Of a DNA stretch of 35,966 bases, positions 1,070 to 12,034 are shown in pieces. A program made the translations under genes and the position numbers. Within the stretch, counting starts at the first letter, position 1; the number at the start of each line of letters is the position of its first letter. The DNA is from a virus. The stretch lies in the IMG/VR virus record IMGVR_UViG_3300031629_000027, positions 1 through 35,966 of that record, one strand, 5' to 3'. A model generated the notes under the pieces. That model searched no databases. It was given only the letters and a program-made list of their open reading frames with translations, and was not told the DNA's origin.

Positions 1070-1093
1070 TACTGTACACCATGATGTACACTA
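1070..1093 (-). repeat. 24-bp element, reversed copy (E0)
   Basis: Read on the minus strand, it has the TAG lead, arms TGTACAT and GTGTACA around CATG, then GTA. It is the only copy pointing left and stands between the rightward promoter at 1142 and the doubtful leftward gene at 744-1016. Confidence 0.8.
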
Positions 1094-1141
1094 GCCAGAC
1101 AATAGCCATTTAAATTATTTACACTTATTTTAAAATAGTTG

Positions 1142-1170
1142 TTGACTATAAGTTACACTTACTGTATTGT
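1142..1170 (+). promoter_or_regulatory. First rightward early promoter
   Basis: TTGACT, a 17-base spacer and TATTGT. The spacer contains TTACACTT, a word also found at the -35 regions of the promoters at 3288 and 5235. A further TTACACTT lies upstream at 1119-1126. It would start the mRNA of the gene at 1230. Confidence 0.55.
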
Positions 1171-1229
1171 TCACTCATCGACTAGCAAACAGCGGTTTGC
1201 AGCGATTAACTCATACAAGGTATTACATT

Positions 1230-1811
1230 ATGTCTAAGCCAAATAAAGCACAAAACAATGCAACAAACGAAGTAGTAGTTGAAAGTGTAGTTGATAATGT
1301 AAATGCGGGTTCTAAGCAAGAAAAGCCTAAGCAAACACAAACTGAAAAGGTGCACGCTGTTTTAAATGAAGCGACAATTCAATACAATGCTATTGTCGAA
1401 AGTGGGCAAGAGAACCTTGTAACACTTCGCAAAATAGGTGAAATACTAATTGGATTGCGTAAAGGTTTCAAGTCAGATAAATTGTTCGGGCAGTTTATTG
1501 CAGAGAGTTCACTCAATGTAATGACTCGCAGAGATCGTGCCGATGCCGTATGGTTAGCTAATAACTGGAAAACAGTTCAAAAATTCAAGGTAGCTGAGGG
1601 AATGGCAAGTGCAAGTGCAAACTACCTACGCAAGAAAATGACGGAAAAGAATCGTGCGGAAAAAGAAAAGAAAAATGGCGGAAAAGCGAAAGGCGGTACA
1701 ACAAAAATGACCGCAGAACAAATTGTCGCAGCGATTGCAAAGCTATCTACCGACAATGATTATACGACCTTGCAAGTGATAACCTTGCTACAAAATAGCT
1801 TGAAAGGATAA
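1230..1811 (+). CDS. DUF3102-like protein, possible DNA-binding regulator
   Basis: 193 residues. The stretch from about residue 60 to 115 (LRKIGEILIGLRKGFKSDK, then FGQFIAESSLNVMTRRDRAD) resembles the DUF3102 pattern found in phage and plasmid proteins, in which a 'when to start' helix pair is followed by a helix-turn-helix-like segment. The N-terminus is Asn/Lys-rich and disordered; a Lys/Gly-rich linker joins a short C-terminal helical part. The ATG at 1230 was chosen over an upstream TTG because AAGG lies ten bases ahead. It is the first gene of the rightward early operon, and a 24-bp element follows 16 bases after its stop. A first early gene of this type is a reasonable candidate for the protein that reads the repeated elements, but nothing in the sequence proves that. 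Confidence 0.75.
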   Translation: MSKPNKAQNNATNEVVVESVVDNVNAGSKQEKPKQTQTEKVHAVLNEATIQYNAIVESGQENLVTLRKIGEILIGLRKGFKSDKLFGQFIAESSLNVMTRRDRADAVWLANNWKTVQKFKVAEGMASASANYLRKKMTEKNRAEKEKKNGGKAKGGTTKMTAEQIVAAIAKLSTDNDYTTLQVITLLQNSLKG

Positions 1812-1827
1812 GCTAAACCTTACGGGT

Positions 1828-1851
1828 TAGTGTACACCATAGTGTACGCTA
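1828..1851 (+). repeat. 24-bp element E1
   Basis: TAG, arm TGTACAC, spacer CATA, then a degenerate arm GTGTACG ending CTA. It is 73 bases ahead of the gene at 1925, one of the longest such distances. Confidence 0.8.
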
Positions 1852-1924
1852 GCCTGTCTTTGAAATAGCATTGAATAGCAGTGTTATTTTTAAGACAACC
1901 AATTAATCAAATGAGGTATTCACT

Positions 1925-2107
1925 ATGAGTATGCAAGACATCCATAAAAGACGGGCAGCAAGGCACCAAATCATTCGCAGGAGACGTTTAAATCGCAACC
2001 CCATGCCAGTGTATATGTCACGCTCGTTTGCAGTGCTAGCACTCTTAACTGTCGCTGCTGTCGCACAATATGCCATGGTTCAATACTTAATTCATTTTGT
2101 TATATAA
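1925..2107 (+). CDS. Small basic protein with C-terminal membrane segment
   Basis: 60 residues. The first half is strongly basic (HKRRAARHQIIRRRRLNR). The second half is one hydrophobic helix (SFAVLALLTVAAVAQYAMVQ) long enough to span the inner membrane, which would leave the positive part in the cytoplasm. GAGG lies nine bases ahead of the ATG; a second in-frame ATG is two codons on. Flanked by 24-bp elements on both sides. No family recognised. Small early membrane proteins of phages often act on host functions or superinfection, but that is only a general expectation. Confidence 0.6.
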   Translation: MSMQDIHKRRAARHQIIRRRRLNRNPMPVYMSRSFAVLALLTVAAVAQYAMVQYLIHFVI

Positions 2108-2110
2108 TTT

Positions 2111-2134
2111 TAGTGTACACCATAGTGTACAGTA
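2111..2134 (+). repeat. 24-bp element E2
   Basis: Full match: TAG, TGTACAC, spacer CATA, GTGTACA, GTA. It ends 11 bases before the ATG at 2146, and the ribosome site (AGAGGTG) begins right where it stops. Confidence 0.85.
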
Positions 2135-2145
2135 GAGGTGATTTT

Positions 2146-2346
2146 ATGAGTGATAATAAAAAGCTATTGTTCCAATTAGAAAACGCAGTGATTGCAATGG
2201 AAGGCAAACAGCTGAGGTTCAATACATATGGTGGCATGGTGTTGACTGATAGATCTGTTGAGATAGCAGCATTGAATGATAGGATAGCAGCTATTGATTG
2301 GACTCAAGCTGAGATCAATCACAATGAGGCGCAGTATGATTGCTAG
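2146..2346 (+). CDS. Hypothetical small early protein
   Basis: 66 residues, soluble, no family recognised. The start is ATG 2146 because AGAGGTG stands at a good distance ahead and the longer frame would run back through the 24-bp element E2. Its stop codon TAG at 2344 is the first three bases of the next element (E3), so gene and element are interlocked. The sequence (LFQLENAVIAMEGKQLRF, then EIAALNDRIAAIDW) suggests mainly helices with a possible short coiled coil. Confidence 0.6.
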   Translation: MSDNKKLLFQLENAVIAMEGKQLRFNTYGGMVLTDRSVEIAALNDRIAAIDWTQAEINHNEAQYDC

Positions 2347-2367
2347 TGTACGTCATGGTGTACACTA
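2344..2367 (+). repeat. 24-bp element E3
   Basis: TAG, a diverged left arm TGTACGT, spacer CATG, arm GTGTACA, then CTA. Its TAG is the stop codon of the gene at 2146, and its last two bases overlap the -35 box of the promoter at 2366. Confidence 0.75.
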
Positions 2368-2394
2368 GACAAGTGTAAGTTATTATGGTATTAT
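2366..2394 (+). promoter_or_regulatory. Early promoter overlapping element E3
   Basis: TAGACA, a 17-base spacer and TATTAT. The -35 runs into AAGTGTAA, the inverse of the ACACTT word at other early promoters. Overlap with E3 would let a protein on that element block RNA polymerase. Confidence 0.5.
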
Positions 2395-2426
2395 AGTTTC
2401 AGTAAATTAAATCAGGAGATTTTATT

Positions 2427-2633
2427 ATGATGTTATTTTTATACCCAAGTAAAAAAGTATTAAAGGAAAACGTAGGCAAGCAATTGCGCTTCAGGGAAAC
2501 CAGCATGTTCGGTGCAGAGTATCGCAGCACAGGTAAATTTGTTGGAGCTAACCGACCTACTCATACAGGTATGGGGCGTGAGTTCTTTGCCGAAGTAACA
2601 ATGGTTGATGATCTTATAGTCAAGGTCAAGTGA
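2427..2633 (+). CDS. Hypothetical small early protein
   Basis: 68 residues, no family recognised. A compact, probably beta-rich sequence (KQLRFRETSMFGAEYRSTG, then FFAEVTMVDDLIVKVK). AGGAG lies nine bases ahead of the ATG at 2427. It has its own promoter (2366-2394) and is followed seven bases after the stop by a strong intrinsic terminator, so it forms a one-gene unit inside the early cluster. That insulated arrangement is unusual for such a tightly packed region. Confidence 0.65.
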   Translation: MMLFLYPSKKVLKENVGKQLRFRETSMFGAEYRSTGKFVGANRPTHTGMGREFFAEVTMVDDLIVKVK

Positions 2634-2639
2634 GTATAT

Positions 2640-2667
2640 GGGGTGGCTATTATGTCACCCCTTTTTT
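2640..2667 (+). terminator. Intrinsic terminator
   Basis: GGGGTG (2640-2645) pairs with CACCCC (2656-2661) across a 10-base loop, and six T follow directly. A classic rho-independent terminator, one base upstream of element E4. Confidence 0.85.
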
Positions 2668-2668
2668 C

Positions 2669-2692
2669 TAGTGTACACCAGAGTGTACAGTA
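2669..2692 (+). repeat. 24-bp element E4
   Basis: Full match with spacer CAGA. It begins one base after the T-tract of the terminator and ends 23 bases before the ATG at 2716. Confidence 0.85.
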
Positions 2693-2715
2693 AGAATTTT
2701 ATTGGGGGTTTTGTT

Positions 2716-2889
2716 ATGCATCAACACGGCTATTACATTGTAGACTCTGCGGGATATATTCTATTAACTATAATCTCGCAAAATACTAACCGAAGTTTCG
2801 ATGATGAGGCTGCTCTTTCAGTGAGTCCATTACTGCCAGTAATTGCAGCTCAATACGGGTTGGATAATGTTTTTTATACAGGGGATTAG
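2716..2889 (+). CDS. Hypothetical small early protein
   Basis: 57 residues, no family recognised. The start is the ATG at 2716, with GGGGG eight bases ahead; a longer frame beginning at 2638 would run through the terminator and element E4 and is rejected. The sequence (YYIVDSAGYILLTIISQN) suggests a small beta-sheet protein. No promoter consensus is seen between the terminator at 2640-2667 and this gene, so either read-through or activity of the element must supply its mRNA. Confidence 0.55.
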   Translation: MHQHGYYIVDSAGYILLTIISQNTNRSFDDEAALSVSPLLPVIAAQYGLDNVFYTGD

Positions 2890-2891
2890 TC

Positions 2892-2915
2892 TAGTGTACA
2901 CCAGAGTGTACAGTA
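2892..2915 (+). repeat. 24-bp element E5
   Basis: Full match with spacer CAGA. The ribosome site AAGGGG starts at the very next base, and the ATG follows 13 bases after the element. Confidence 0.85.
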
Positions 2916-2928
2916 AGGGGTATTAAAT

Positions 2929-3273
2929 ATGTATATACATAACGGGGATTTGCCTAGCTTAGTTCTGACTGAGTTAGAATACGCAATGGAAAGGTATCGC
3001 ATTTGTTATGAGGGCAGGGGGCTTAGTCCTGTATATGATCAATCCTCTGCTTTTCAGTATCAATTTGAAGCGGCCCGACAATTACGCAGGGTATGTATGC
3101 TAGAGGGCAACATGAAATTTAGAAACTACAATAGCAGGGATGTGGTGGACTTGGTACATCTGGCACATAAGATGTGCAGGAGGGGTGAGCTAGTTAAATT
3201 AATTAGGTGTGGCTGTGAGGATGGCTGCAATAATTGTGAGGGAATGTCTAGTGTACACCAGAGTGTACAGTAA
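2929..3273 (+). CDS. Hypothetical early protein with Cys-rich end
   Basis: 114 residues, no family recognised. Mostly helical (LVLTELEYAMERYRICYEGRG, then FEAARQLRRVCMLEG). Near the end a cysteine cluster (CGCEDGCNNCEG) could bind zinc or form an Fe-S site. The reading frame runs straight through the 24-bp element E6, which encodes the last residues and ends at a TAA formed by the element's last two bases and the next base. So this tail (SSVHQSVQ) may be an accident of element placement and the working protein may effectively end after the cysteine cluster. AGGGG ahead of the ATG supports the start. Confidence 0.6.
   Translation: MYIHNGDLPSLVLTELEYAMERYRICYEGRGLSPVYDQSSAFQYQFEAARQLRRVCMLEGNMKFRNYNSRDVVDLVHLAHKMCRRGELVKLIRCGCEDGCNNCEGMSSVHQSVQ
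3249..3272 (+). repeat. 24-bp element E6, inside a coding end
   Basis: Full match with spacer CAGA. It lies wholly within the last codons of the gene at 2929. A consensus promoter follows 16 bases later, and the next gene starts 82 bases on. Confidence 0.85.
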
Positions 3274-3287
3274 GAATACTGTTACAC

Positions 3288-3316
3288 TTGACACTTACAC
3301 TTAGCTATGTTATAAT
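3288..3316 (+). promoter_or_regulatory. Consensus early promoter with ACACTT repeats
   Basis: TTGACA, a 17-base spacer and TATAAT, a perfect sigma70 match. Three ACACTT repeats (3284-3289, 3291-3296, 3297-3302) cover the -35 box, pointing to a regulator that competes with polymerase. Confidence 0.85.
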
Positions 3317-3354
3317 AGCTACTTCAATCGGGAACTTAATAGGGAGGCAGGGCC

Positions 3355-3585
3355 ATGAGTACAAGCAATTACACGTTTGATATTGATGTGGAATCATGGG
3401 AGCTAAGGGTTGATGTGTCTGTATCAGGGGGATACCTCCCTGCTAGTATGGATTCTCCTGCTGAGGCTCCTGAAATTGAGTACATTATTACGCACGTTTT
3501 AGAGTATGGGTCGTTCGATGACATATCCGATGATGATGTATGGTCGGCTGTCTGTGGTAAGTTAGAGGATCTAAGGGAAGGCTAG
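3355..3585 (+). CDS. Acidic hypothetical early protein
   Basis: 76 residues, very acidic towards the C-terminus (SFDDISDDDVWSAVCGKLEDLREG), beta-rich at the start (YTFDIDVESWELRVDVSVSGG). No family recognised. GGGAGG stands ahead of the ATG, and the consensus promoter at 3288-3316 sits directly upstream, so this gene should be strongly expressed early. Small acidic early proteins of phages are often inhibitors that mimic DNA or bind host polymerase or nucleases; nothing here identifies a target. Its TAG stop at 3583 is the first three bases of element E7. Confidence 0.65.
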   Translation: MSTSNYTFDIDVESWELRVDVSVSGGYLPASMDSPAEAPEIEYIITHVLEYGSFDDISDDDVWSAVCGKLEDLREG

Positions 3586-3606
3586 TGTACACCACAGTGT
3601 ACAGTA
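3583..3606 (+). repeat. 24-bp element E7
   Basis: Full match with spacer CACA. Its TAG is the stop codon of the gene at 3355; the next ATG is 25 bases downstream. Confidence 0.85.
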
Positions 3607-3631
3607 GAAAATTAAACCAGAGGGTTTTGTT

Positions 3632-4351
3632 ATGAAATTGTTAGACACAAGCGGTGGCAACACCAAGTTAGCCAAGAACAATAAGGATCTTACATTACGG
3701 GTAGCAGGGTGCAGCCTTATGCCAGACAAAAAAGTATGCCCCATGCAAATTATTGCTGACTGTTGGGGGCCATGCTTACAAGCGGCAGGTCGTGGGGGAT
3801 TCGATGGGGTCAAGGCTGCAAGGCAAGCTAGGACTGATTGGTATCACTCTGATAGGCAGGGGTTTATTGCTCAACTCAAGCATGAGCTAGGGAATTTTCT
3901 CAAGCTATGCAAAAAGAATGGGGTCGAGTGTTGGGTACGCCTCAATGTATTGTCTGATGTACAGTGGGAGCTAGCCACTAATGGTAGTATACCGCAATCA
4001 TTCCCTGAGATTAATTTCTATGACTACACCAAGGTAGCCAAGCGACTGACTAAAATGCCTCGCAATTATCGGCTCATGTTTTCATACAGTAAGGCACCCA
4101 AGTATCAGGGTGAGGTACAAAAGGCATTGCTTACTGATGTGCCTATGAGCGTGGTATTTTATGGGCCTTTCCCTACTACCTTTATGGGCAAGGAAGTTGT
4201 CGATGGTGACAAGTCAGACATTCTTAACCTTGATGCAAGGGGTAAGGTTGTTGCACTCAAGTACAAGGTTGCCAAGGGTAAGGGCATTGACCCTGCTGAC
4301 CATATGTTTGTGGTCAATACTCATATGATACCTACTGTACAGGTAGCGTAA
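3632..4351 (+). CDS. Gp88-family phage protein
   Basis: 239 residues. The order of motifs matches the Gp88 family, known from mycobacteriophage L5 gene 88 and found in many phages: an N-terminal 'LLDTSGGNTKLAK' region, a cysteine-rich segment (C27, C36, C44, C48) around CWGPCLQAAGRGGF, then KAARQARTDWY, WVRLNVLSDVQWE, INFYDYTKVAKR and YRLMFSYS. The family is widespread but its biochemical role is not established; the cysteines may bind a metal or Fe-S cluster. The start ATG 3632 has GAGGG ahead. It stands alone between elements E7 and E8, as do many of its neighbours. Family assignment is fairly sure; function is unknown. Confidence 0.8.
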   Translation: MKLLDTSGGNTKLAKNNKDLTLRVAGCSLMPDKKVCPMQIIADCWGPCLQAAGRGGFDGVKAARQARTDWYHSDRQGFIAQLKHELGNFLKLCKKNGVECWVRLNVLSDVQWELATNGSIPQSFPEINFYDYTKVAKRLTKMPRNYRLMFSYSKAPKYQGEVQKALLTDVPMSVVFYGPFPTTFMGKEVVDGDKSDILNLDARGKVVALKYKVAKGKGIDPADHMFVVNTHMIPTVQVA

Positions 4352-4357
4352 TCATTC

Positions 4358-4381
4358 TAGTGTACACCAGAGTGTACAGTA
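4358..4381 (+). repeat. 24-bp element E8
   Basis: Full match with spacer CAGA, six bases after the stop of the Gp88-like gene and 22 bases ahead of the ATG at 4404. Confidence 0.85.
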
Positions 4382-4403
4382 AAACTTTTAATAGGGGTAA
4401 GCC

Positions 4404-4556
4404 ATGACTGTAATGACTAGGAAGCAAATGAAAGCGGTGACCAAGGCACAGGCTGCTGCTAAGAATAAGGTAGGGCGTAGGAAAATGACTGTGCGTAGGG
4501 CCATTGAAGATATAGAACTGCAACGGGCAATGAAAAAACAGGAGGTATGGGTATGA
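4404..4556 (+). CDS. Very basic 50-residue protein
   Basis: 50 residues, extremely basic (KQMKAVTKAQAAAKNKVGRRK, split by no acidic residues), ending in a short mixed helix (RRAIEDIELQRAMKKQEVWV). Such composition suggests nucleic-acid binding, but there is no recognised motif. AGGGGTAA lies ahead of the ATG, and element E8 is directly upstream. The stop TGA overlaps the ATG of the next gene (ATGA at 4553), which indicates translational coupling and supports the reality of both frames. Confidence 0.6.
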   Translation: MTVMTRKQMKAVTKAQAAAKNKVGRRKMTVRRAIEDIELQRAMKKQEVWV

Positions 4557-4810
4557 ATTTACTAGAGAAATTAAGTCCGTACATGTATGACAAAGTGGCT
4601 GTTGAGGAAATCACAAGTAGACATTTTGGTATGACACCTCGGGGTGAGGCTATGCCACAGACCATTGAGGAATGGAAGCATCTAGTAGACCTAGACGAGG
4701 TGGCTATGCGTAAGATGGTCAAGGAAATTGGTGACCTAAAGAGTAAGGTTGCTAGTCTTAGCCAGAAGGTAGCTAGTCAACAGATTAAATTAGATAGGGG
4801 TGACCTATGA
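4553..4810 (+). CDS. Hypothetical protein with C-terminal coiled coil
   Basis: 85 residues from the ATG at 4553. This start has GGAGG (4541-4545) seven bases ahead and overlaps the previous stop; the upstream ATG at 4547 would sit right against the ribosome site. The C-terminal half (MRKMVKEIGDLKSKVASLSQ) has a clear heptad pattern of a coiled coil, so it probably forms dimers or higher oligomers. The N-terminal part (SPYMYDKVAVEEITSRHFG) is not recognised. It is the middle gene of a three-gene unit 4404-5238 joined by ATGA overlaps. Confidence 0.65.
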   Translation: MNLLEKLSPYMYDKVAVEEITSRHFGMTPRGEAMPQTIEEWKHLVDLDEVAMRKMVKEIGDLKSKVASLSQKVASQQIKLDRGDL

Positions 4811-5238
4811 GAGTTCAAGTGTATCGTAATCTACACAATGGGTTGATCAGCATACAAGATCTGAGTACAGGCTTGGTGCTAGGCCATGCTTATGCTGTTG
4901 ATCTGGAAGAGGCTACCTTTATTGTAAGGGAGGCAGGTAGGCAGCAGGTTATAAGGGAGCAGCGTAAGAATGTACACGCCTTTGTACGGGGTAAGGTTGT
5001 CGATGTTGTTAACTTCCAGCCCTTCAAGGGTAGGGGTGCGACCCTTTACGATGATATACCTTATGAACCAGATATATATAGTAGGCTACAGCGAGGCAGT
5101 ATGGTGGGGGGTACTACTACTAAGGTCAGCTACAATCCATACAAGGCTCCACACTTTGTAACGCCAGAGGGTGACGAGGTGGACTATGCTAACCTATGTA
5201 CTGTCCAATCCAATGGGGTGATACAGTGTTACACTTGA
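4807..5238 (+). CDS. Conserved phage protein of unknown function
   Basis: 143 residues. The pattern VYRNLHNGLISIQDLSTGLVLGHA at the start, then REAGRQQVIREQRKNVHAFVRG and VSYNPYKAPHFV is one I recognise from many tailed-phage genomes, where it is annotated only as hypothetical. Probably beta-rich at both ends with a basic helix between. The ATG at 4807 overlaps the stop of the gene before (ATGA). The stop codon TGA at 5236 lies inside the -35 box of the next promoter (5235-5263), so the end of the gene doubles as regulatory DNA. Confidence 0.7.
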   Translation: MRVQVYRNLHNGLISIQDLSTGLVLGHAYAVDLEEATFIVREAGRQQVIREQRKNVHAFVRGKVVDVVNFQPFKGRGATLYDDIPYEPDIYSRLQRGSMVGGTTTKVSYNPYKAPHFVTPEGDEVDYANLCTVQSNGVIQCYT

Positions 5239-5263
5239 CAAGTGTAGTTAACCTGTGTATAAT
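5235..5263 (+). promoter_or_regulatory. Consensus early promoter with 17-bp operator palindrome
   Basis: TTGACA, a 17-base spacer and TATAAT, a perfect sigma70 match. The -35 is the centre of a perfect palindrome at 5230-5246: TACACTTG, A, CAAGTGTA. This is the clearest operator in the window. Confidence 0.85.
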
Positions 5264-5305
5264 AGTAATCAGTAATCGAGGGCAGGAGTTCTTGCCTTAT
5301 AATCC

Positions 5306-5329
5306 TAGTGTACACTGTAGTGTACAGTA
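5306..5329 (+). repeat. 24-bp element E9
   Basis: TAG, TGTACAC, spacer TGTA, GTGTACA, GTA. Here the spacer extends the pairing to 8 bases per arm. It lies 42 bases downstream of the -10 box, so it is inside the transcript, and 21 bases ahead of the ATG at 5351. Confidence 0.85.
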
Positions 5330-5350
5330 GAAACTAAAGAGGAAGTAATC

Positions 5351-5536
5351 ATGAAAACAATCTATCGTAAGCGAGTATCTAAAATGCGTGTTGGTATCAG
5401 CAATGGCCCATGCTTTGTGGGGTTCCACTATGGTCTGCGCTCATTCTATGTAGCCAAGGTTCCTAACACCCGTCTAGCCACGGGATACCTCAAGGGTATC
5501 ACTGACGTAAAGGGTAAGGTAGAAGTACGTACCTAG
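5351..5536 (+). CDS. Small basic early protein
   Basis: 61 residues, basic, probably all-beta (RVGISNGPCFVGFHYGLRSFYVAKV). No family recognised. AGAGGAAG lies ahead of the ATG. It follows the strongest early promoter and element E9, so it should be well expressed early. A short GC-rich hairpin (5543-5562) follows the stop. Confidence 0.6.
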   Translation: MKTIYRKRVSKMRVGISNGPCFVGFHYGLRSFYVAKVPNTRLATGYLKGITDVKGKVEVRT

Positions 5537-5542
5537 TAACAC

Positions 5543-5562
5543 GCCTCCTGTAACAGGGAGGC
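5543..5562 (+). other. GC-rich hairpin between genes
   Basis: GCCTCCT pairs with GGGAGGC (one G-T pair). No T-run follows, only an AT-rich stretch, so it is more likely an mRNA processing or stabilising hairpin than a strong terminator. Confidence 0.4.
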
Positions 5563-5591
5563 AACACTAATTTTAATTTGGAGTAGTACCT

Positions 5592-6452
5592 ATGAACGCA
5601 TTAGTAAAAAACTTTGGTAACATCGTAGCACTTCCTGATCATCTAAACTTTGACCCTCAACGTGAGCAGCAGACTCGTAATGGGGTGGTAGTTGACGGCA
5701 AATGGTGGACTGTTAACCCATTAACAGACGAGGTGATAGGAGATGGTAAGCGTAATCATTCGCCTAAGAACTTTGCGTTGATGTGGGATAGCCTACGGGA
5801 AGGCTTGCACCACTCTGGTTTACAGACGGGTGATGCATCCACCACCTTTCGTACCTACAACGGGACTGCTGGACTACGAGCAGAGATTACCCTACCCAAT
5901 CATGACTTCAATCATGCACTAGGGGAGGCATCGTGCTTAAAGATTCGGTATGTGGATAGTCATGATCAATCCTCCAAGCTATCTATTGGGGCTATGGTGA
6001 TGCGGCTTACGTGTCTCAATGGGCAGGTAAGTATGCGAGAAAATACCAGCCTCTCTCAGCTACACACCTTGAGTTATAATCCTGAGCGTATAGGTAAGGT
6101 CGCCTCTCAGTGGCCTACGTATTTGCTGGAGGACTGCGCTGATATGAAGCGTATGCGTACCTTACGGGTCAGTAGGGAGGTAGCTATACACTTTTACTCT
6201 ACCTATGTAGCGTCCAATAAGACTCGCACTGGCCCTGTAGTTAACAAGGCTCTGCTTGAGCGCATCATGGGCATACATGATTCTTATAAAGGTCTTAATG
6301 ATACAGTGTATCGCATGTACAATGTGCTAACACATATGAGTACACATGTTGAATCCAAATCTTGTAGCACTAAGAAACAATTAGTAATGGAAGATAAGAT
6401 CAGCTCTATAATTAAAGGTGATGCGTTCAAGGAATTAGTAGCATACGCCTAG
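5592..6452 (+). CDS. DUF932-like phage protein
   Basis: 286 residues. The segment CLKIRYVDSHDQSSKLSIGAMV followed by RLTCLNGQVSM matches the core of the DUF932 family (phage/plasmid-like proteins), in which an ordinary beta sheet is followed by 'S.D...A...G..v.vC.N'. Family members occur in many phages and plasmids; their role is not known with certainty. The Thr/Arg-rich N-terminal part and helical C-terminal part (VNKALLERIMGIHDSYKGLND) fit the usual length. GGAG stands nine bases ahead of the ATG. The TAG stop at 6450 is the start of element E10. Confidence 0.7.
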   Translation: MNALVKNFGNIVALPDHLNFDPQREQQTRNGVVVDGKWWTVNPLTDEVIGDGKRNHSPKNFALMWDSLREGLHHSGLQTGDASTTFRTYNGTAGLRAEITLPNHDFNHALGEASCLKIRYVDSHDQSSKLSIGAMVMRLTCLNGQVSMRENTSLSQLHTLSYNPERIGKVASQWPTYLLEDCADMKRMRTLRVSREVAIHFYSTYVASNKTRTGPVVNKALLERIMGIHDSYKGLNDTVYRMYNVLTHMSTHVESKSCSTKKQLVMEDKISSIIKGDAFKELVAYA

Positions 6453-6473
6453 TGTACACTGTGGTGTACAGTA
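6450..6473 (+). repeat. 24-bp element E10
   Basis: TAG, TGTACAC, spacer TGTG, GTGTACA, GTA. Its TAG is the stop codon of the DUF932-like gene. A second hairpin (6480-6499) lies between it and the next ATG, 51 bases away. Confidence 0.85.
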
Positions 6474-6479
6474 GAAATA

Positions 6480-6499
6480 GACCCCATTAACGTGGGGTC
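6480..6499 (+). other. Hairpin between element E10 and next gene
   Basis: GACCCC (6480-6485) pairs with GGGGTC (6494-6499) over an 8-base loop. No T-tract follows. It would lie in the leader just upstream of the ribosome site AGGAG at 6512. Confidence 0.4.
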
Positions 6500-6524
6500 A
6501 CAGTGGTTTACAGGAGTAAGAGTA

Positions 6525-6782
6525 ATGAACGTCACAGTAAGTAATACTAACGGGGTAAAGGACAACAAGAGTTATGTACGTGTGTATGTTAACTCCGTTA
6601 AGGTAGCAGAGGTATCACCTAGCAGACGCAACCCGTTAGGTTACATGCGTCAGTACAAGAACTCTAAGTATTGGGGTGAGGTACGTGTGCAGTTAGAGTG
6701 CTGTGCCTTGGCAGGTATGTTTACTCTCAAGGAAGTGGACAACATAATGAGTGAGGTTAAGGGGGTTAGCAATGGAAGTTGA
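6525..6782 (+). CDS. Hypothetical small early protein
   Basis: 85 residues, no family recognised. The ATG at 6525 is chosen because AGGAG lies eight bases ahead; an upstream GTG at 6492 falls inside the hairpin at 6480-6499. The sequence begins with a predicted beta hairpin (SYVRVYVNSVKVAEV) and ends with a helix (TLKEVDNIMSEVKGV). The stop overlaps the next gene by 11 bases, so the two are translated together. Confidence 0.6.
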   Translation: MNVTVSNTNGVKDNKSYVRVYVNSVKVAEVSPSRRNPLGYMRQYKNSKYWGEVRVQLECCALAGMFTLKEVDNIMSEVKGVSNGS

Positions 6783-6984
6783 ATCAAGTAACAGTTGGGT
6801 GGGTAATACAGTTAACTTTGTATTAGAGGGAAGTATCTATCTTAGGTTACACTCTACGGGTAATGAATATGTCCCTCATGGTACTACCATATGGTACAAG
6901 GCTTCTCATAAGGGTGGGTTTCACCATGTAATAGATGATACTAAACTTAATGCAGCATGGGATAAGCATGAAAACATTCAATGA
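6772..6984 (+). CDS. Hypothetical small early protein
   Basis: 70 residues, no family recognised. Starts at ATG 6772 within the end of the previous gene, with GGGGG eight bases ahead; a longer frame from GTG 6751 lacks a ribosome site. Beta-rich, aromatic (NFVLEGSIYLRLHSTGNEY, WYKASHKGGFHHVI). Its last 17 bases overlap the start of the integrase gene, so the integrase is probably translationally coupled to it. Confidence 0.6.
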   Translation: MEVESSNSWVGNTVNFVLEGSIYLRLHSTGNEYVPHGTTIWYKASHKGGFHHVIDDTKLNAAWDKHENIQ

Positions 6985-7858
6985 TCTATCTGCTGAGTAT
7001 GTGGAATCCTATGACTTCAATGCCTGTAAGTCTGGCACTCAACGTGACTACCTATACTGGGCAGTGCGTCTGGGTAGTGTGCCTATCAATGGTGTACTGT
7101 TTGGATTCCATGATGTGGAAAAGATCAACACGCCTATGGCACAGAAAGCCTACGAGTACCTACTAAACAGTGGGGTATCAATGGCTAACCATGTGGTAGG
7201 CTTAGGGTCTATAGTCTTTGGTCATAGTATACGGCTAGGCACTGTGAACCATAACCCCTTCACTCACATCAAGCGTAGGTCTTCGGCTCACCGCAAGGTG
7301 GTGTGGTCTGAGCAGGACATAGGGGACTACCTCACTACTGCGTACAGTCAGTTCAAGTGGCGTAACGTAGGACTGATAACTCAGATGTCATACGAGTGGT
7401 GCCAACGTCAAGGTGATATGCGACTACTGAAATGGGAGCAATATGATCTGGAGTCTGGTATACTTACACTTGAGCAGAGCAAGCGAGGTGCAGAGGTTAC
7501 CTTACCAACGTCAGTAGGACTACAGGCTATGCTAAAGAAACAGCATGAAGACTTTGGGTTCCAGAAGTGGATAGCCCCTAGACCAAGGCCAGTGGGTAGT
7601 TTGTATCAGCCCTACTCTATGCGAGGTCTATCAGTACAGGCTAAGGTAGTAAGGGATGCGTCAGGTATCTCAGATCTATTACAGATCAGGGACATGCGTA
7701 GGACAGGCACAGTGGAAATGGTAGAGGCAGGGGTAGACTTACCTCAGATCATGTCAGTGACAGGTCATGCCAATCCTGCCAGTGTTAAGCCTTACATGAA
7801 GAACACATTAAAATCATCCAGCATGGCTATGCAAGCCAGATGGGACAGCAAAGAATAG
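6968..7858 (+). CDS. int: Tyrosine recombinase / integrase
   Basis: 296 residues from the ATG at 6968; an in-frame ATG at 6935 would add 11 residues but has no ribosome site. The catalytic domain shows R147 (WCQRQGD), K172 (EQSKRGAEV), R244 in RDMRRTG, H267 in VTGHANP and the nucleophile Y276 (KPYM). The first residue of the usual HxxR box is Arg here (R241), a substitution seen in some tyrosine recombinases. The N-terminal 110 residues form the core-binding domain. It would integrate the phage DNA at a short host site or resolve genome ends, but no attachment site can be named from sequence alone. Position inside the early operon, rather than next to a repressor, is odd for a temperate phage; it recalls marine podoviruses that carry an integrase yet grow lytically. 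Confidence 0.85.
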   Translation: MKTFNDLSAEYVESYDFNACKSGTQRDYLYWAVRLGSVPINGVLFGFHDVEKINTPMAQKAYEYLLNSGVSMANHVVGLGSIVFGHSIRLGTVNHNPFTHIKRRSSAHRKVVWSEQDIGDYLTTAYSQFKWRNVGLITQMSYEWCQRQGDMRLLKWEQYDLESGILTLEQSKRGAEVTLPTSVGLQAMLKKQHEDFGFQKWIAPRPRPVGSLYQPYSMRGLSVQAKVVRDASGISDLLQIRDMRRTGTVEMVEAGVDLPQIMSVTGHANPASVKPYMKNTLKSSSMAMQARWDSKE

Positions 7859-7918
7859 CCTAAGAGTTAATACAGAGGGGGGTAGGACGGATGTTTAGTC
7901 TTTGCCCATAGCAACAGT

Positions 7919-7947
7919 AGGGGTAGGTAACGTAGTGTTATACCCCC
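7919..7947. other. Strong hairpin downstream of integrase
   Basis: GGGGTA (7920-7925) pairs with TACCCC (7941-7946), and TAAC (7928-7931) pairs with GTTA (7937-7940) inside it. It lies in the only gene gap around the integrase (7859-7972). It could be a processing hairpin, a weak terminator, or part of an attachment site. Confidence 0.45.
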
Positions 7948-7972
7948 ATCTATATTTAATGGAGTAATGAGT

Positions 7973-8197
7973 ATGAAGTTTTATACAGTGTATGAGTGTG
8001 AAGGGTATACTTTTAAGTGGTATGGTGACTGCATCATTGATGTGTTCAAGCCTGTTAAGGATGCTCGTAAGAAACCAGCATCAGCCTATAAACAGATTGA
8101 GTTCTATGAGGAAGCGGATAATCAGATAGTAAAAGTTGTATGCCTTGAATGGCTAGTAGAGGAAGGTGTAATAACAGGAACGGGGATGTACCTATGA
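7973..8197 (+). CDS. Hypothetical small protein
   Basis: 74 residues, no family recognised. GGAG at 7961 is eight bases from the ATG at 7973 but only two from the ATG at 7967, so 7973 is preferred. Aromatic and charged (MKFYTVYECEGYTFKWYGD), with a helix at the end (VVCLEWLVEEGVITG). The stop overlaps the next start by ATGA. Confidence 0.6.
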   Translation: MKFYTVYECEGYTFKWYGDCIIDVFKPVKDARKKPASAYKQIEFYEEADNQIVKVVCLEWLVEEGVITGTGMYL

Positions 8198-8397
8198 AAG
8201 CAGAACTAGACGAGTCAGCACAGGTGTGGACACCGATGATTATAAAGATCACTTTGGAAACAGAGAATGAGTACATGGCATTGCGTAACATCTACTCTGT
8301 ACAGGAGGTCACCTCACTGGATGCTGAGCATAGGGTACGTGATCGTAATGTACTCACAGGCTTAGTCAATGCCTTAGTTAAGGCAGTGGGTAAATAA
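8194..8397 (+). CDS. Hypothetical small protein
   Basis: 67 residues, no family recognised. The ATG at 8194 overlaps the previous stop (ATGA) and has GGGGA ahead. It has a beta strand with a charged helix (IIKITLETENEYMALRNIY) and a C-terminal helix (VLTGLVNALVKAVGK). Last gene before the promoter of the replication module. Confidence 0.6.
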   Translation: MKAELDESAQVWTPMIIKITLETENEYMALRNIYSVQEVTSLDAEHRVRDRNVLTGLVNALVKAVGK

Positions 8398-8405
8398 TTT
8401 AGTGG

Positions 8406-8435
8406 TTGACGGGTGTTTCATTTACATGCTACACT
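8406..8435 (+). promoter_or_regulatory. Extended -10 promoter for the replication module
   Basis: TTGACG, an 18-base spacer and TACACT preceded by TG one base earlier (extended -10). It lies 31 bases upstream of element E11 and would drive the primase operon. Confidence 0.55.
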
Positions 8436-8465
8436 CCGTTACCCCCACCGCCAGTGTAACATAGC

Positions 8466-8489
8466 TAGTGTACACCACAGTGTACAGTA
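8466..8489 (+). repeat. 24-bp element E11
   Basis: Full match with spacer CACA, the last well-conserved copy. It ends 10 bases before the primase ATG, and its final bases lead directly into the ribosome site AAGAGGTG. Confidence 0.85.
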
Positions 8490-8499
8490 AGAGGTGAGT

Positions 8500-9267
8500 A
8501 TGAACATACGACAGCACGTAATAGACTTGGAGTTACCCGTAGGTCACTCAGTCAGAACCAACTGCCCTGTATGCCATAGGAAGAATACCTTTGGTGCATC
8601 CAATGATATGGGTATCCTCAAGTGGCAATGCTTTAGCGCATCATGTAGTACGAGAGGTATAGGTGAGACTAACCTATCTGCTATGGACATAAGAGCGTTG
8701 ATGAATCAGGCAGGTATCAGTGGGGAGTTATCACCCATTGAGTTGCCTATCAGTGTGACTAGAACCTTACCTGACGAGGCAGTATCATGGCTCCACTACT
8801 GGGGCATACATGGTGTAGGTACACACTACTGGGACATTAAAGATAGCAGGGTAATATTCCCTGTGGTTAAGAATCATATACTGTATGATGCAACGGGTCG
8901 TACATTGAACAAGGTAGTCACACCTAAATGGAAACGATACGGAGGCTCTGGCTTACCATTCGTAGTAGGTGAGGGCAACGTAGCAGTAGTGGTAGAAGAT
9001 GCTATCAGTGCCAGTGTGTGTGCCTCTGAGGGGTATGTTGGTGTAGCCCTACTAGGTACTAACCTAATGGAGAGCCATGCACTATCCTTGCTCAAGTATG
9101 ACAAGGTGATTGTAGCACTAGACCCTGATGCCTCTATGAAATCCTTGGCCCATGTTAAGGAACTACGTAGGCACATACGGAAAGCAATTGCATTGAAGTT
9201 AGATGATGATATAAAGTACCGCCTTGATGTTGATCTTAATAAACTTAGGAGTATGGCTAATGAGTGA
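8500..9267 (+). CDS. DNA primase (zinc ribbon plus TOPRIM)
   Basis: 255 residues. An N-terminal zinc site (C22, C25, C44, C49, starting NCPVCHRKNTFG) is followed by a TOPRIM domain with E166 (VVVEDAISA) and D208/D210 (VALDPDAS), the metal-binding residues of primases. It matches the primase half of T7 gp4; the helicase half is a separate gene at 12035, as in SIO1-like phages. It would lay down short RNA primers at the replication fork. The ATG at 8500 is used; a GTG two codons upstream lies within the ribosome site. Gene end overlaps the next start. Assignment is firm; whether it acts alone or bound to the helicase is inferred. Confidence 0.88.
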   Translation: MNIRQHVIDLELPVGHSVRTNCPVCHRKNTFGASNDMGILKWQCFSASCSTRGIGETNLSAMDIRALMNQAGISGELSPIELPISVTRTLPDEAVSWLHYWGIHGVGTHYWDIKDSRVIFPVVKNHILYDATGRTLNKVVTPKWKRYGGSGLPFVVGEGNVAVVVEDAISASVCASEGYVGVALLGTNLMESHALSLLKYDKVIVALDPDASMKSLAHVKELRRHIRKAIALKLDDDIKYRLDVDLNKLRSMANE

Positions 9268-9892
9268 CTACACTATAACTCCTGTAACTAGGGATGATTG
9301 CAAGCCATTCATACTAGACATTCACTATGCTAAGAGGTGGCCCAGTGTCTCTTATAGGTATGGCTTATTCAAGGGGGAGGAACTGGTAGGTGTAGTTACC
9401 TATGGTACTCCAGCATCCTCTGGACTTAGGGCTGGCATAGCAGGTGATGCACATAAGGGTGAGGTGCTTGAACTTAACAGGCTATGCTTGAAGTACAACG
9501 TAAAGAATGAGGCATCCATGTTGGTGGCTAAGAGTCTGACCATGCTACCTAAAGGTAGGATCGTAGTATCTTTTGCTGATGGTTCACAGGGTCATGTAGG
9601 GTACGTTTACCAAGCATGTAACTTTACCTATCATGGCCTTAGTGCCAAGCGCACTGATTGGAAGGTCAGAGGTAAGGAACATCTGCATGGCATGACTATA
9701 GCTGACGAGTTCAGAGGTGTAGCTAATCGTAGCCAAGCATTGAGGGATAAGTATGGTGATGATTTCTACTCAGCACCTAGACCAAGGAAGCATAGGTACA
9801 TTTTTCTGGTAGGCAGCAAGACTTATAAGCGTGTGGTTACTAAGCACATTAAGTATAAACAGGAACCCTACCCCAAGGAGGTAGCAGTATGA
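9260..9892 (+). CDS. Mom-like DNA modification protein
   Basis: 210 residues. Several motifs match the Mom family of phage Mu and its many phage relatives: IHYAKRWPSV (H22, Y23), GLFKGEELVGVVTYG, EVLELNRLCL and SFADGSQGHVGYVYQACNF (residues 104-122), then GLSAKRTDW. Mom is an acyltransferase-fold (GNAT-like) protein that changes adenine bases to a carbamoylmethyl form and so protects phage DNA from many restriction enzymes. Here it is co-transcribed with the primase and overlaps its stop, with AGGAG eight bases from the ATG, so modification would be made as DNA is copied. The basic C-terminus (RYIFLVGSKTYKRVVTK) may contact DNA. The family assignment is fairly sure; the chemical product in this phage is unknown. 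Confidence 0.8.
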   Translation: MSDYTITPVTRDDCKPFILDIHYAKRWPSVSYRYGLFKGEELVGVVTYGTPASSGLRAGIAGDAHKGEVLELNRLCLKYNVKNEASMLVAKSLTMLPKGRIVVSFADGSQGHVGYVYQACNFTYHGLSAKRTDWKVRGKEHLHGMTIADEFRGVANRSQALRDKYGDDFYSAPRPRKHRYIFLVGSKTYKRVVTKHIKYKQEPYPKEVAV

Positions 9893-9996
9893 ATAAAATA
9901 ATGGAGTTCTTATATGGTGCAGGTTATATATGTTGCATTGCCGTAGCATTCTATGTAACACTTGTGATTGTGGATAGCATAATAGGAGGTAGGTAA
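9889..9996 (+). CDS. 35-residue single-span membrane peptide
   Basis: Thirty-five residues, mostly one hydrophobic segment (YICCIAVAFYVTLVIVDSII) after a short start MNKIMEFLYG. It is coupled on both sides: ATG overlaps the previous stop (ATGA), and its TAA overlaps the next ATG (TAATG). A strong AAGGAGG lies ahead of the ATG. It is two genes upstream of the SleB-like wall hydrolase, so a pinholin or lysis-helper role is possible; regulation of host membrane functions is equally possible. No family recognised. Confidence 0.65.
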   Translation: MNKIMEFLYGAGYICCIAVAFYVTLVIVDSIIGGR

Positions 9997-10232
9997 TGAG
10001 TACTAAAACATTGGAGGCACTGGGCAAGGTGTTCACATCTGAGGTGATAGATGCATTTCTTAGGGAGGGCTTAGTAGATTACTATGAGGTGGTTTCTTCC
10101 TTCTGTAAGGATAAGACTGCAACCGATGCGGAACTGGATAGGAACGAGAAGATGCAGAATGCCTTGACCATAGTGATTGAGGACTTCATGACACCTGATG
10201 AATTTAAACAATGGCTTAAGGATAGAACGTAA
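9996..10232 (+). CDS. Hypothetical acidic protein
   Basis: 78 residues, helical, no family recognised (EVIDAFLREGLVDYYEVV, then ALTIVIEDFMTPDEFKQWLKD). GGAGG lies six bases ahead of the ATG, which overlaps the previous TAA; its own TAA overlaps the next ATG in the same TAATG way. It stands between the membrane peptide and the wall hydrolase, always translated with both. Confidence 0.65.
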   Translation: MSTKTLEALGKVFTSEVIDAFLREGLVDYYEVVSSFCKDKTATDAELDRNEKMQNALTIVIEDFMTPDEFKQWLKDRT

Positions 10233-10645
10233 TGCTTAGTGCTGTGATGTGCCTTGCCTTGAACCTTTACTTTGAGGCGAGGGATCAGCCAGTGGTAGGG
10301 CAGTTAGCCGTGGGCTACAGCACCATGAACAGAGTTAAGGACGAGCGTTATCCTGACACTGTTTGTGGTGTAGTAAAGCAAGCCCAGTATTCATCTTGGG
10401 ATAGTAAGAATCCCATACGGCATCGTTGCCAGTACTCATGGTTTTGTGATGGAATGTCTGACGAGCCTAAAAATAGTAAGGCTATGCTGGAAGCTACAAT
10501 CTTAGCGGCTAACATATACTATGGCAGGGTGACCGACATATCAGATGGGGCTACACACTACCATGCAACGTGGATTGAGGCTCCATACTGGACAGAACAA
10601 ATGACTACTGTGTTCACGATAGATGAACATATATTTTATAGATAG
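10232..10645 (+). CDS. SleB-like cell wall hydrolase (endolysin candidate)
   Basis: 137 residues. The start CLALNLYFEARDQPVVGQLAV, then YSTMNRV, YPDTVCGVV, QYSWFCDG and GATHYHA..PYW match the SleB / Hydrolase_2 family, whose members cut peptidoglycan glycan strands. The glutamate in YFEAR is the expected catalytic acid. It has no signal peptide or membrane segment, so it would need a holin, or the small membrane peptide at 9889, to reach the wall. It is encoded within the replication operon, far from the second wall enzyme at 32710, so the phage has two unrelated peptidoglycan hydrolases. Lysis is the likely job, with a role in entry as alternative. Confidence 0.82.
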   Translation: MLSAVMCLALNLYFEARDQPVVGQLAVGYSTMNRVKDERYPDTVCGVVKQAQYSSWDSKNPIRHRCQYSWFCDGMSDEPKNSKAMLEATILAANIYYGRVTDISDGATHYHATWIEAPYWTEQMTTVFTIDEHIFYR

Positions 10646-10653
10646 GAGGCAGC

Positions 10654-10944
10654 ATGTCTACAAAGAATGATGTTACGAAAGTACCACCTATTGGGGAAGA
10701 CACTAGGCCAAAGGATTGGGTGAAGCTAGGTCTTAGTCCTAGTACTGTGGTGGTGGATATGGATTCTACTAAGGTACTACGTAGTAAAATGGTTCAAGCT
10801 TTGTGCGATTACAAGGCAGCTTATGATAACTCTGAAGCATTAACTCCAGAGGAAGACCCTGAGTTACAAAGACTATACTATGCATATTCAGATTTGTATA
10901 ACGAGTACATGGATAGGCTCGATAGATCGGAGGAATATGTATGA
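10654..10944 (+). CDS. Hypothetical acidic helical protein
   Basis: 96 residues, no family recognised. The N-terminal half is Pro/Asp-rich (KVPPIGEDTRPKDWVKLG), the C-terminal half is a pair of charged helices (YKAAYDNSEALTPEEDPE, LYYAYSDLYNEYMDRLD), probably a helical hairpin. GGAGG lies ahead of the ATG. The stop overlaps the next start by ATGA. Confidence 0.6.
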   Translation: MSTKNDVTKVPPIGEDTRPKDWVKLGLSPSTVVVDMDSTKVLRSKMVQALCDYKAAYDNSEALTPEEDPELQRLYYAYSDLYNEYMDRLDRSEEYV

Positions 10945-11219
10945 GCATTGTATTCAAACCTAAGATCCCTAAAGACTTCTCTGACTTACTCCCTGTTAAG
11001 GTAGTAAAGGTAGCAGAGCCTAAGTACAAGCCCCGATGGTGGACAGCAGAGGAGAAGGATCAGCTTGTGGAACTACGTGCAATGGGAGTATCCTTCCATG
11101 ACTGTGCCTCTATACTTAGGAGAGGTCAGGGTAGCATTGCCCACATACTAAAGGCATATGAATTACATGGTGCCATATGGAACCTTCGTCAAGCTAGCAT
11201 AGATAGGATAATGAAATGA
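10941..11219 (+). CDS. HTH protein (Myb/GcrA-like), paralog 1
   Basis: 92 residues. After a distinctive start MSIVFKPKI, the segment WWTAEEKDQLVELRAMGVSF and then HDCASILRRGQGSIAHILKAY has the shape of a three-helix Myb/SANT or GcrA-like DNA-binding domain. It is the first of two tandem paralogs; the second (11216) begins with the same nine residues, encoded by nearly identical DNA, then diverges. The ATG overlaps the previous stop and GGAGG stands seven bases ahead. A role as transcription regulator of the phage is likely; which sites it binds is unknown, but the repeated elements of the early region are an obvious candidate. Confidence 0.7.
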   Translation: MSIVFKPKIPKDFSDLLPVKVVKVAEPKYKPRWWTAEEKDQLVELRAMGVSFHDCASILRRGQGSIAHILKAYELHGAIWNLRQASIDRIMK

Positions 11220-11551
11220 GTATTGTATTCAAACCAAAGATAGGTGATCACCTTCGTAAGTCACCCGACCAAAGGGTTGATACCTTTAGCAAGGAAGAGA
11301 TAGCTGAGGTTATACAGCTACGGGCTAGGGGTACTTCTTATACAGAGTGTGGCAGAATACTATCTAGGGCTAAGGGAAGCATAGGTAGTATGATTCATTA
11401 CTATGATCTGCAAGACGAGATTGCTACAGCTAAAGCTTTACTAAATGTCCATACATCACCATGTATAGGTGTGTGTAAGTTGGATAAGTATGGTGTATGC
11501 AAGGGATGTAATCGTACCATGTCAGAAATATCTAATTGGGTGGTATCATGA
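11216..11551 (+). CDS. HTH plus DUF1289-like fusion, paralog 2
   Basis: 111 residues. The N-terminal two thirds repeat the layout of paralog 1 (FSKEEIAEVIQLRARGTSY, then TECGRILSRAKGSIGSMI). The C-terminal part SPCIGVCKLDKYGVCKGCNR with C83, C87, C95 and C98 and the ending TMSEISNW match the DUF1289 pattern of small bacterial proteins. The cysteines could hold a metal or Fe-S cluster and act as a sensor. A DNA-binding domain joined to a DUF1289 module is unusual and not one I know. The gene overlaps both neighbours by ATGA, so it belongs to the replication operon. Confidence 0.72.
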   Translation: MSIVFKPKIGDHLRKSPDQRVDTFSKEEIAEVIQLRARGTSYTECGRILSRAKGSIGSMIHYYDLQDEIATAKALLNVHTSPCIGVCKLDKYGVCKGCNRTMSEISNWVVS

Positions 11552-11940
11552 CAGATCATTGGGGGTGTCCTCACGAAAAAGTACCTGACCCCAAGGTCAC
11601 TAGCGTTACTGGAGTAGTGGATTTAGAATTGTATGACTGTGAGGTGGAAGAGATAGCTAAGGCTATACTACATAACGACATGGTTCGCACATGGCACAAG
11701 ATGCAGTCGGGTGATGGGCCATCCAACGATGCACATAGGTTGCGTGTGTATGTTAAACTAAGGCGTTATGCAGATAGGTGTGATCTTATCTTTGATGATT
11801 GGTACTGCCATATCAATGACAAATATATCTATGCTATGGCAACAGGAAGCTGGCGTGTGGATGGTCGCAAGAAATGGTACAAGTCTAAGAGTCCTGAACA
11901 CTTCATAGAAAACTATGTACTTAAATCCCCATTTGATTAG
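11548..11940 (+). CDS. Hypothetical protein
   Basis: 130 residues, no family recognised. The start ATG 11548 overlaps the previous stop and has GGGTGG ahead. It carries scattered Cys/His at the N-terminus (HWGCPHEK) and several Trp/Tyr-rich patches (RCDLIFDDWYCHINDKYIY, SWRVDGRKKWYKS), suggesting a small alpha/beta fold. It ends the first replication sub-operon; the gap after it holds the diverged element pair (11951-12015). Confidence 0.6.
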   Translation: MTDHWGCPHEKVPDPKVTSVTGVVDLELYDCEVEEIAKAILHNDMVRTWHKMQSGDGPSNDAHRLRVYVKLRRYADRCDLIFDDWYCHINDKYIYAMATGSWRVDGRKKWYKSKSPEHFIENYVLKSPFD

Positions 11941-11950
11941 TAGCTTTGGG

Positions 11951-12015
11951 TAATATACTATGGTGTATAATACGCATTAAAATATATACTATAGTGTATA
12001 CTGTAGTATACATTG
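11951..12015 (+). repeat. Pair of diverged 24-bp elements before the helicase (E12)
   Basis: The copy at 11992-12015 has arms TGTATAC and GTATACA around TGTA: both arms carry the same mirrored change from the standard copies. A weaker copy starts at 11951 (TAATATAC, TATG, GTGTATA). The pair ends 19 bases before the helicase ATG. A TATAAT at 11966-11971 could also be a -10 box, though no -35 is obvious. Confidence 0.55.
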
Positions 12016-12034
12016 TTAATTATAAGGAACAAAT

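Follow-up and report, generated by a model that had tools for sequence, protein, structure and literature searches.

Dispersed inverted repeats in the early region of an HMO-2011-type phage genome and the candidate regulator gene that their type follows

Introduction

The 35,966-nucleotide stretch of viral DNA analysed here (IMG/VR record IMGVR_UViG_3300031629_000027, positions 1 to 35,966; hereafter the window) carries a 24-bp hyphenated inverted repeat, TAG-TGTACAC-N4-GTGTACA-GTA, in 12 copies between positions 1070 and 8489. What is this element, and which gene acts through it? An earlier note on the same DNA had offered two models, binding of a dimeric phage regulator to the DNA and an mRNA hairpin. 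We compared the window with related phages, and the results support the DNA site and disfavour the RNA hairpin. The element is probably a phage-specific DNA operator, and its predicted regulator is the small orphan protein of the first rightward early gene (gene 1).

The window is a marine-type phage of the HMO-2011 kind. Its family A DNA polymerase, DnaB helicase, primase and integrase stand in HMO-2011 order, and it also encodes a Cas4-type exonuclease, a ribonucleotide reductase and a tyrosine integrase. The polymerase shares 52-56% identity with the enzymes of HMO-2011, CRP-1, CRP-345 and related isolates. A megablast search of the whole window against named phages gave no match.

The dyad type follows gene 1

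L013 (99.8% identical) and L011 carried the same element as the window at the same gene junctions. The TGTACAC element was missing from L019/L097 and L022 despite polymerases that are 93-94% identical. Absence from relatives, which the earlier note had raised as a point against the element, was therefore found literally in L019 and L022, but another dyad of the same system replaces it. The early-region dyad was TAG-TGTACT-N4-AGTACA-GTA in L098, AGGTGTCC-N6-GGACACCT in L101 and L022, and TTGACGGAATTCAGTCAA in L102 and L132, while L097 (= L160) had a composite element at 7604-9505, with GTYGGGGAYRTCCCCRAC adjoining TACCCTTTAGGGTA. Sites of the form TGWCGAA-N2-TTCGWCA were present in 24 contigs placed on the gene 1 tree, mostly in 3-5 copies each, and often shared the TAG/GTA flanks of the window. 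Among cultured phages, the early regions of CRP-345 and CRP-1 carry TGTCCAA-N2-TTGGACA, and gp74 of HMO-2011 sits between two AGTCCGACAGCGGACT copies. Within a type the arm changes were mirrored, a check that the earlier note had proposed, and L098 had its own version, TGTACTAGGTAGTACA, at the site orthologous to window copy 8466. Strict orientation, which was also looked for in relatives, was kept in the window lineage only.

The spot of copy 8466 also differed in other ways. L022 has one site of another type there (AGGTGTACGATGTTTATCACCT, 3667-3688), and genes resembling HNH-type endonucleases, with HNH judged by eye, occupy it in L019 (4544-5025) and L022 (3665-4210). A hybrid of two half-site types was seen in L101 at 4481.

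The type of dyad tracked a single gene. Between types, gene 1 identity was 29-46%, versus 83-94% for the integrase and 76-96% for the primase (in a comparison of five phages, each with a different element). In the tree built from gene 1, each dyad type with more than one row formed a single clade, and the 11 types required 10 changes, the minimum possible, versus 18.7 in shuffles. A profile search with gene 1 matched 45 viral contigs and found homologues in the isolates CRP-345 and CRP-1 (gp01 in both, 43 bits) and, weakly, in HMO-2011 (gp74, 18 bits). These homologues were detected by profile only, tblastn with gene 1 giving no match in the named phage records. Three sampled isolates, CRP-2, CRP-207 and CRP-603, had neither a gene 1 match nor a dyad family.

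Across 77 contigs, the presence of gene 1 was associated with a 3-copy dyad family (p = 2.8e-5), in a table that undercounts because exact-arm counting overlooks sites with one degenerate position; 12 contigs with gene 1 were scored as lacking dyads. Contigs with dyads and no gene 1 numbered six, including HMO-2011 itself (L177), whose gene 1 falls outside the stretch used in the table, and L094, which has an HMO-2011-type site. A prophage search with the gene 1 profile and the integrase confirmed none in 84,980 bacterial and archaeal genomes. The integrase is unlikely to be the binder and was rejected, because it is conserved across phages whose site types are unrelated. At the level of sequence, these results establish that the sites exist, how they are laid out, that they are confined to the early region and that they diverge together with gene 1.

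Copies of the element in the window

We scanned the window with TGTACACNNNNGTGTACA, allowing up to three mismatches, and obtained 17 matches versus 2.7 by chance, the highest of 100 shuffles being 8. Exact matches to TAGTGTACACNNNNGTGTACA gave nine copies, all forward, and the reversed-pattern control gave none. The match at 4971 is located within coding sequence and resembles a chance match. Eleven copies point rightward (1828-8489) and one leftward. The coordinates in the earlier note were all correct for the rightward starts (1828, 2111, 2344, 2669, 2892, 3249, 3583, 4358, 5306, 6450 and 8466), and its leftward copy at 1070 was borne out. Its statement that copies are absent from the leftward virion half also held, since the element scan found no convincing copy there and the sole match, with three mismatches, lies at 23193.

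The early-region features are as follows.

1070-1093, minus strand: dyad copy 1, TAC-TGTACACCATGATGTACA-CTA in reverse orientation, about 140 bp 5' of gene 1
1230-1811, plus strand: gene 1, first rightward early gene; 193-aa orphan protein, candidate cognate DNA-binding regulator
1828-1851, plus strand: dyad copy 2, 16 bp past the gene 1 stop; symmetric ends TAG...CTA
2111-2134, plus strand: dyad copy 3; ATG 2146 lies 11 bp downstream
2344-2367, plus strand: dyad copy 4, with the arm TGTACGT; shares bases with the stop of the preceding open reading frame (ORF) and with the -35 of the promoter at 2366-2394
2669-2692, plus strand: dyad copy 5, directly after an intrinsic-terminator-like hairpin (2640-2661); ATG 2716 lies 23 bp on
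2892-2915, plus strand: dyad copy 6; ATG 2929 lies 13 bp downstream
3249-3272, plus strand: dyad copy 7; overlaps the 3' end of ORF 2929-3273, 5' of a perfect sigma70 promoter (3288-3316)
3583-3606, plus strand: dyad copy 8; its own TAG is the stop of ORF 3355-3585; ATG 3632 lies 25 bp on
4358-4381, plus strand: dyad copy 9; ATG 4404 lies 22 bp downstream
5306-5329, plus strand: dyad copy 10, 3' of a perfect sigma70 promoter (5235-5263); ATG 5351 lies 21 bp on
6450-6473, plus strand: dyad copy 11; the same intergenic spot holds a AGGTGTCC-type site in L022 and L101
8466-8489, plus strand: dyad copy 12, in a leader after a promoter-like sequence (8406-8435); ATG 8500 lies 10 bp on

The idea that the flanks give each copy a direction was correct for 10 of the 12 copies, in which TAG...GTA is directional, but not for copies 1828 and 2344, which end in CTA and are symmetric. 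Likewise, the claim that most copies end 10-25 bases before an ATG applied to 7 of 12 (8 if the GTG at 6492 is taken as a start) and failed for copies 1828, 2344 and 3249, where the gap to the start codon is 59-82 bases. For copies 2344 and 3249, a promoter lies between the copy and the start codon.

Layout of the sites around gene 1 and promoters

In the relatives, nearly every locus with enough flanking sequence had one site 160-520 bp 5' of gene 1, a distance comparable to that of window copy 1. A second site lay within the 3' part of the gene or just after it, and further sites followed downstream. The same flanking layout was found for HMO-2011 gp74 and CRP-345 gp01. In the longer contigs (27-58 kb), no site lay outside the early region around gene 1, and the sites clustered no more than about 6 kb from it. 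All nine gene-1 contigs tested (9/9) carried an integrase.

We then related the sites, across types, to promoters and gene starts. For eight of 110 sites, the -10 of a strong sigma70 promoter lay 30-60 bp upstream, and a null of random gene starts gave a mean of 1.47 and a maximum of 6 in 500 trials. About half of the sites preceded, by 10-40 bp, a start codon that has a ribosome-binding site. Promoters near sites were mostly 5' of the site (8/11 at -32 to -57 bp), and several of these site-linked promoters had a perfect TTGACA.

DNA site or RNA hairpin

If the element acted as RNA, it would form a hairpin with a 7-bp stem and a 4-base loop in the 5' leaders of early genes and control translation or RNA decay. 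The window element does fold as RNA (-9 kcal/mol, z -3.75), its sites stand in leaders, 10-40 bp before the Shine-Dalgarno sequence and ATG, and the few substitutions found in the arms within the window lineage would still pair as G.U in sense-strand RNA. The TGWCGAA type, for which 87 distinct copies were available, behaved differently. Twenty-four of the 87 lie inside the coding sequence of gene 1, and sites occur in both orientations beside rightward genes. At stem pair 3, the copies had T-A in 46, T-T in 24, T-G in 9, A-A in 7 and C-A in 1, and A-T never, so that the pair was broken without compensation (T-T, A-A or C-A) in 32 of 87. Such a pattern is that of independent half-sites of a putative DNA-binding protein, not of an RNA stem. 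An Rfam search of the element gave no match.

The RNA hairpin is disfavoured because of the intragenic copies, the two orientations beside rightward genes and the uncompensated stem breaks, and we consider it improbable. The DNA site is supported because the dyads of relatives differ at equivalent places, their arms are mirrored and their type tracks one gene.

Proposed role of the gene 1 protein and alternative explanations

Under the operator reading, a dimer of the gene 1 protein would sit on the inverted repeat with one subunit per arm. Since one site lies 5' of gene 1 and one just after or inside it, the protein may control its own gene through these flanking sites. The remaining sites, in leaders and short intergenic gaps of early genes, would allow the bound protein, most likely, to halt or block host RNA polymerase just past strong sigma70 promoters and between early genes, as a roadblock or in stoperator-like repression. 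The outcome would be early shut-off, with control of immunity or lysogeny in these integrase-bearing phages. We infer that the gene 1 protein binds the sites, forms dimers, acts as a repressor and takes part in lysogeny. Gene 1 is probably a previously undescribed repressor with scattered sites in an abundant, integrase-bearing phage group for which no repressor was known.

A broader proposal, on which our judgement is evenly divided, is that in HMO-2011-type and related phages an undescribed repressor family governs immunity and early gene expression by way of 4-12 dispersed palindromic operators, and that in close relatives regulator and sites switch together, creating heteroimmune groups on an otherwise shared genome. 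No relatives of the protein were found in the protein family libraries or the sequenced bacterial genomes searched.

Several observations weigh against the operator reading. Profile searches of Pfam, PHROGs and the PDB with 29 gene 1 members returned no family. The protein model has a confident helical core (about residues 37-150), and two further helices form a separate pair at the C terminus (162-192); two AlphaFold models compared with the PDB and viral libraries gave nothing convincing, the best viral match (E 0.0065) being an unnamed phage protein. The first model had a weak structural match to ParB/Spo0J (1vz0, Z 4.5) that was absent with the second, deeper model, and this match was not used as evidence of family membership. 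Several window sites have no recognisable promoter nearby, and gene 1 is part of the early operon, not a separate leftward repressor gene. Elements of the window type are mostly in one orientation, although a simple symmetric operator would work in either. The G.U pairs described above count on the same side.

We also weighed explanations that assign the repeats another function. They could mark recombination boundaries or be small mobile palindromes, persisting because they delimit exchangeable cassettes, with no regulator involved. Exactly one window unit running from element to element (2137-2343) is missing from L011, and another gene takes the place of the one between two copies at 2718-2889; the breakpoints fall at the repeats in both cases. 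The HNH genes at the 8466 spot in L019 and L022 point the same way. These cassette events are, however, best read as homologous recombination between short repeats, the integrase, as the obvious recombinase, is nearly constant among phages with unrelated repeats, and the strict tracking of gene 1 and the constant layout around it would be left unexplained. We regard this account as unlikely. A gene 1 protein that is ParB-like and draws the early region together in partition or nucleoprotein assembly, with the repeats as centromere-like or compaction sites, would agree with the location of the sites within about 6 kb of gene 1 and with the single Spo0J/ParB match. The failure of that match to recur, the placement of sites between promoters and start codons and the lack of a ParA among the early genes scanned (part of the ORFs) make it very unlikely. 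Equally doubtful are activator sites through which the gene 1 protein would switch early promoters on. Copies 2344 and 3249 do lie just 5' of promoters, but across types the promoters are mostly 5' of the site, and several have a perfect TTGACA and therefore need no activator.

Other repeats and neighbouring features

The earlier note had counted a diverged pair at 11951-12015 as the same element. It proved to be a separate one: tandem AT-rich dyads (TATATACTATAGTGTATACTGTAGTATACA, 11951-12034) precede the DnaB gene, are nearly letter-for-letter identical in L022 (8268-8335), a relative without the TGTACAC repeat, and are diverged in L023 and L030, whatever the element type. The pair does not follow gene 1, because it is near-identical in L022, which has another element type. 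These dyads are possibly an origin or a helicase operator.

Other phages showed repeats of their own. In GP88-related phages (L115 946-1404, L116 509-967 and L114), GTTTCC-N3-GGAAAC dyads mark gene starts and lie on both sides of a 152-aa gene that is positioned like gene 1 and has no clear sequence similarity to it. In L065 (126-2393), five copies of ATTTACTGGTAAAT flank a 247-aa first gene; the layout is alike and the similarity to gene 1 is not significant. L012, a 93-kb viral contig, has several copies of AATTGTCAAACAATT-like repeats unrelated to gene 1. The window also encodes a Mom-like DNA modification protein at 9224-9892 (phrog_1384, E 2e-54).

Significance for HMO-2011-type phages

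Phages of the HMO-2011 type belong to the dominant groups of marine phages. Many of them encode an integrase, and integration was demonstrated for CRP-3 (PMC9038755, PMC6918029); neither a repressor nor palindromes are mentioned for these phages in those two papers. A candidate regulator and putative sites can now be named in cultured phages, namely CRP-1 gp01, CRP-345 gp01 and HMO-2011 gp74, and the control of lysis and lysogeny in the group is therefore directly testable. The set of dyad types also offers a clean natural series for studying the joint shift in specificity of a regulator and its dozen dispersed sites.

Comparison with known systems

The likeness to mycobacteriophage stoperators and start-associated sequences that had been suggested holds for the dispersed or oriented sites, but not for site symmetry, sequence or arm length. 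Stoperators of Cluster A mycobacteriophages (L5/Bxb1 type) are asymmetric sites of a monomeric repressor (PMC9283540, PMC6550527). The system described here resembles them in its many dispersed sites in short intergenic regions of an early region with strong promoters, and in a phage-group-specific site sequence that follows the regulator. It differs in its 7+4+7 inverted repeat, in which just the outer TAG/GTA flank is asymmetric, and in a candidate protein of no known family. The bound Cluster A protein stops elongation, and the placement of sites downstream of promoters here fits that, as far as sequence alone can indicate.

In Cluster K mycobacteriophages, SAS and ESAS are oriented repeats directly 5' of early gene starts, SAS being the 13-bp GGGATAGGAGCCC and ESAS an imperfect inverted repeat with 17-bp arms and a variable spacer (PMC3203893). 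The window element is likewise oriented and close before gene starts, as the gaps above show, but it has another sequence and another arm length. SAS and ESAS are not known to have a linked regulator gene, whereas here such a gene tracks the site type.

In KorB/O_B of IncP plasmids and in ParB/parS, palindromic operators of about 13-16 bp are dispersed, some close to the regulator gene and others at a distance from it. The present sites share this dispersal and palindromic form. Unlike those systems, no CTPase domain was seen, ParB-type relationship being judged by Pfam in the 29 members and by the single unrepeated match; no ParA ATPase partner was found among the early-region proteins scanned, and the sites differ between close relatives.

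In the Bacillus phage SPbeta, the repeat SPBRE was seen first and its master repressor MrpR, which binds about ten promoter regions and has a tyrosine-recombinase fold, was found later (PMC10516654). The element here is also repeated at promoter or intergenic regions of a phage. In contrast to MrpR, the recombinase-like gene hardly varies between phages with different sites, and the candidate protein is predicted to be small and helical, its model having no clear structural match. Dispersed operators are as in the stoperator and SPBRE/MrpR systems, and what differs here is an inverted-repeat site together with a candidate regulator of an unnamed family.

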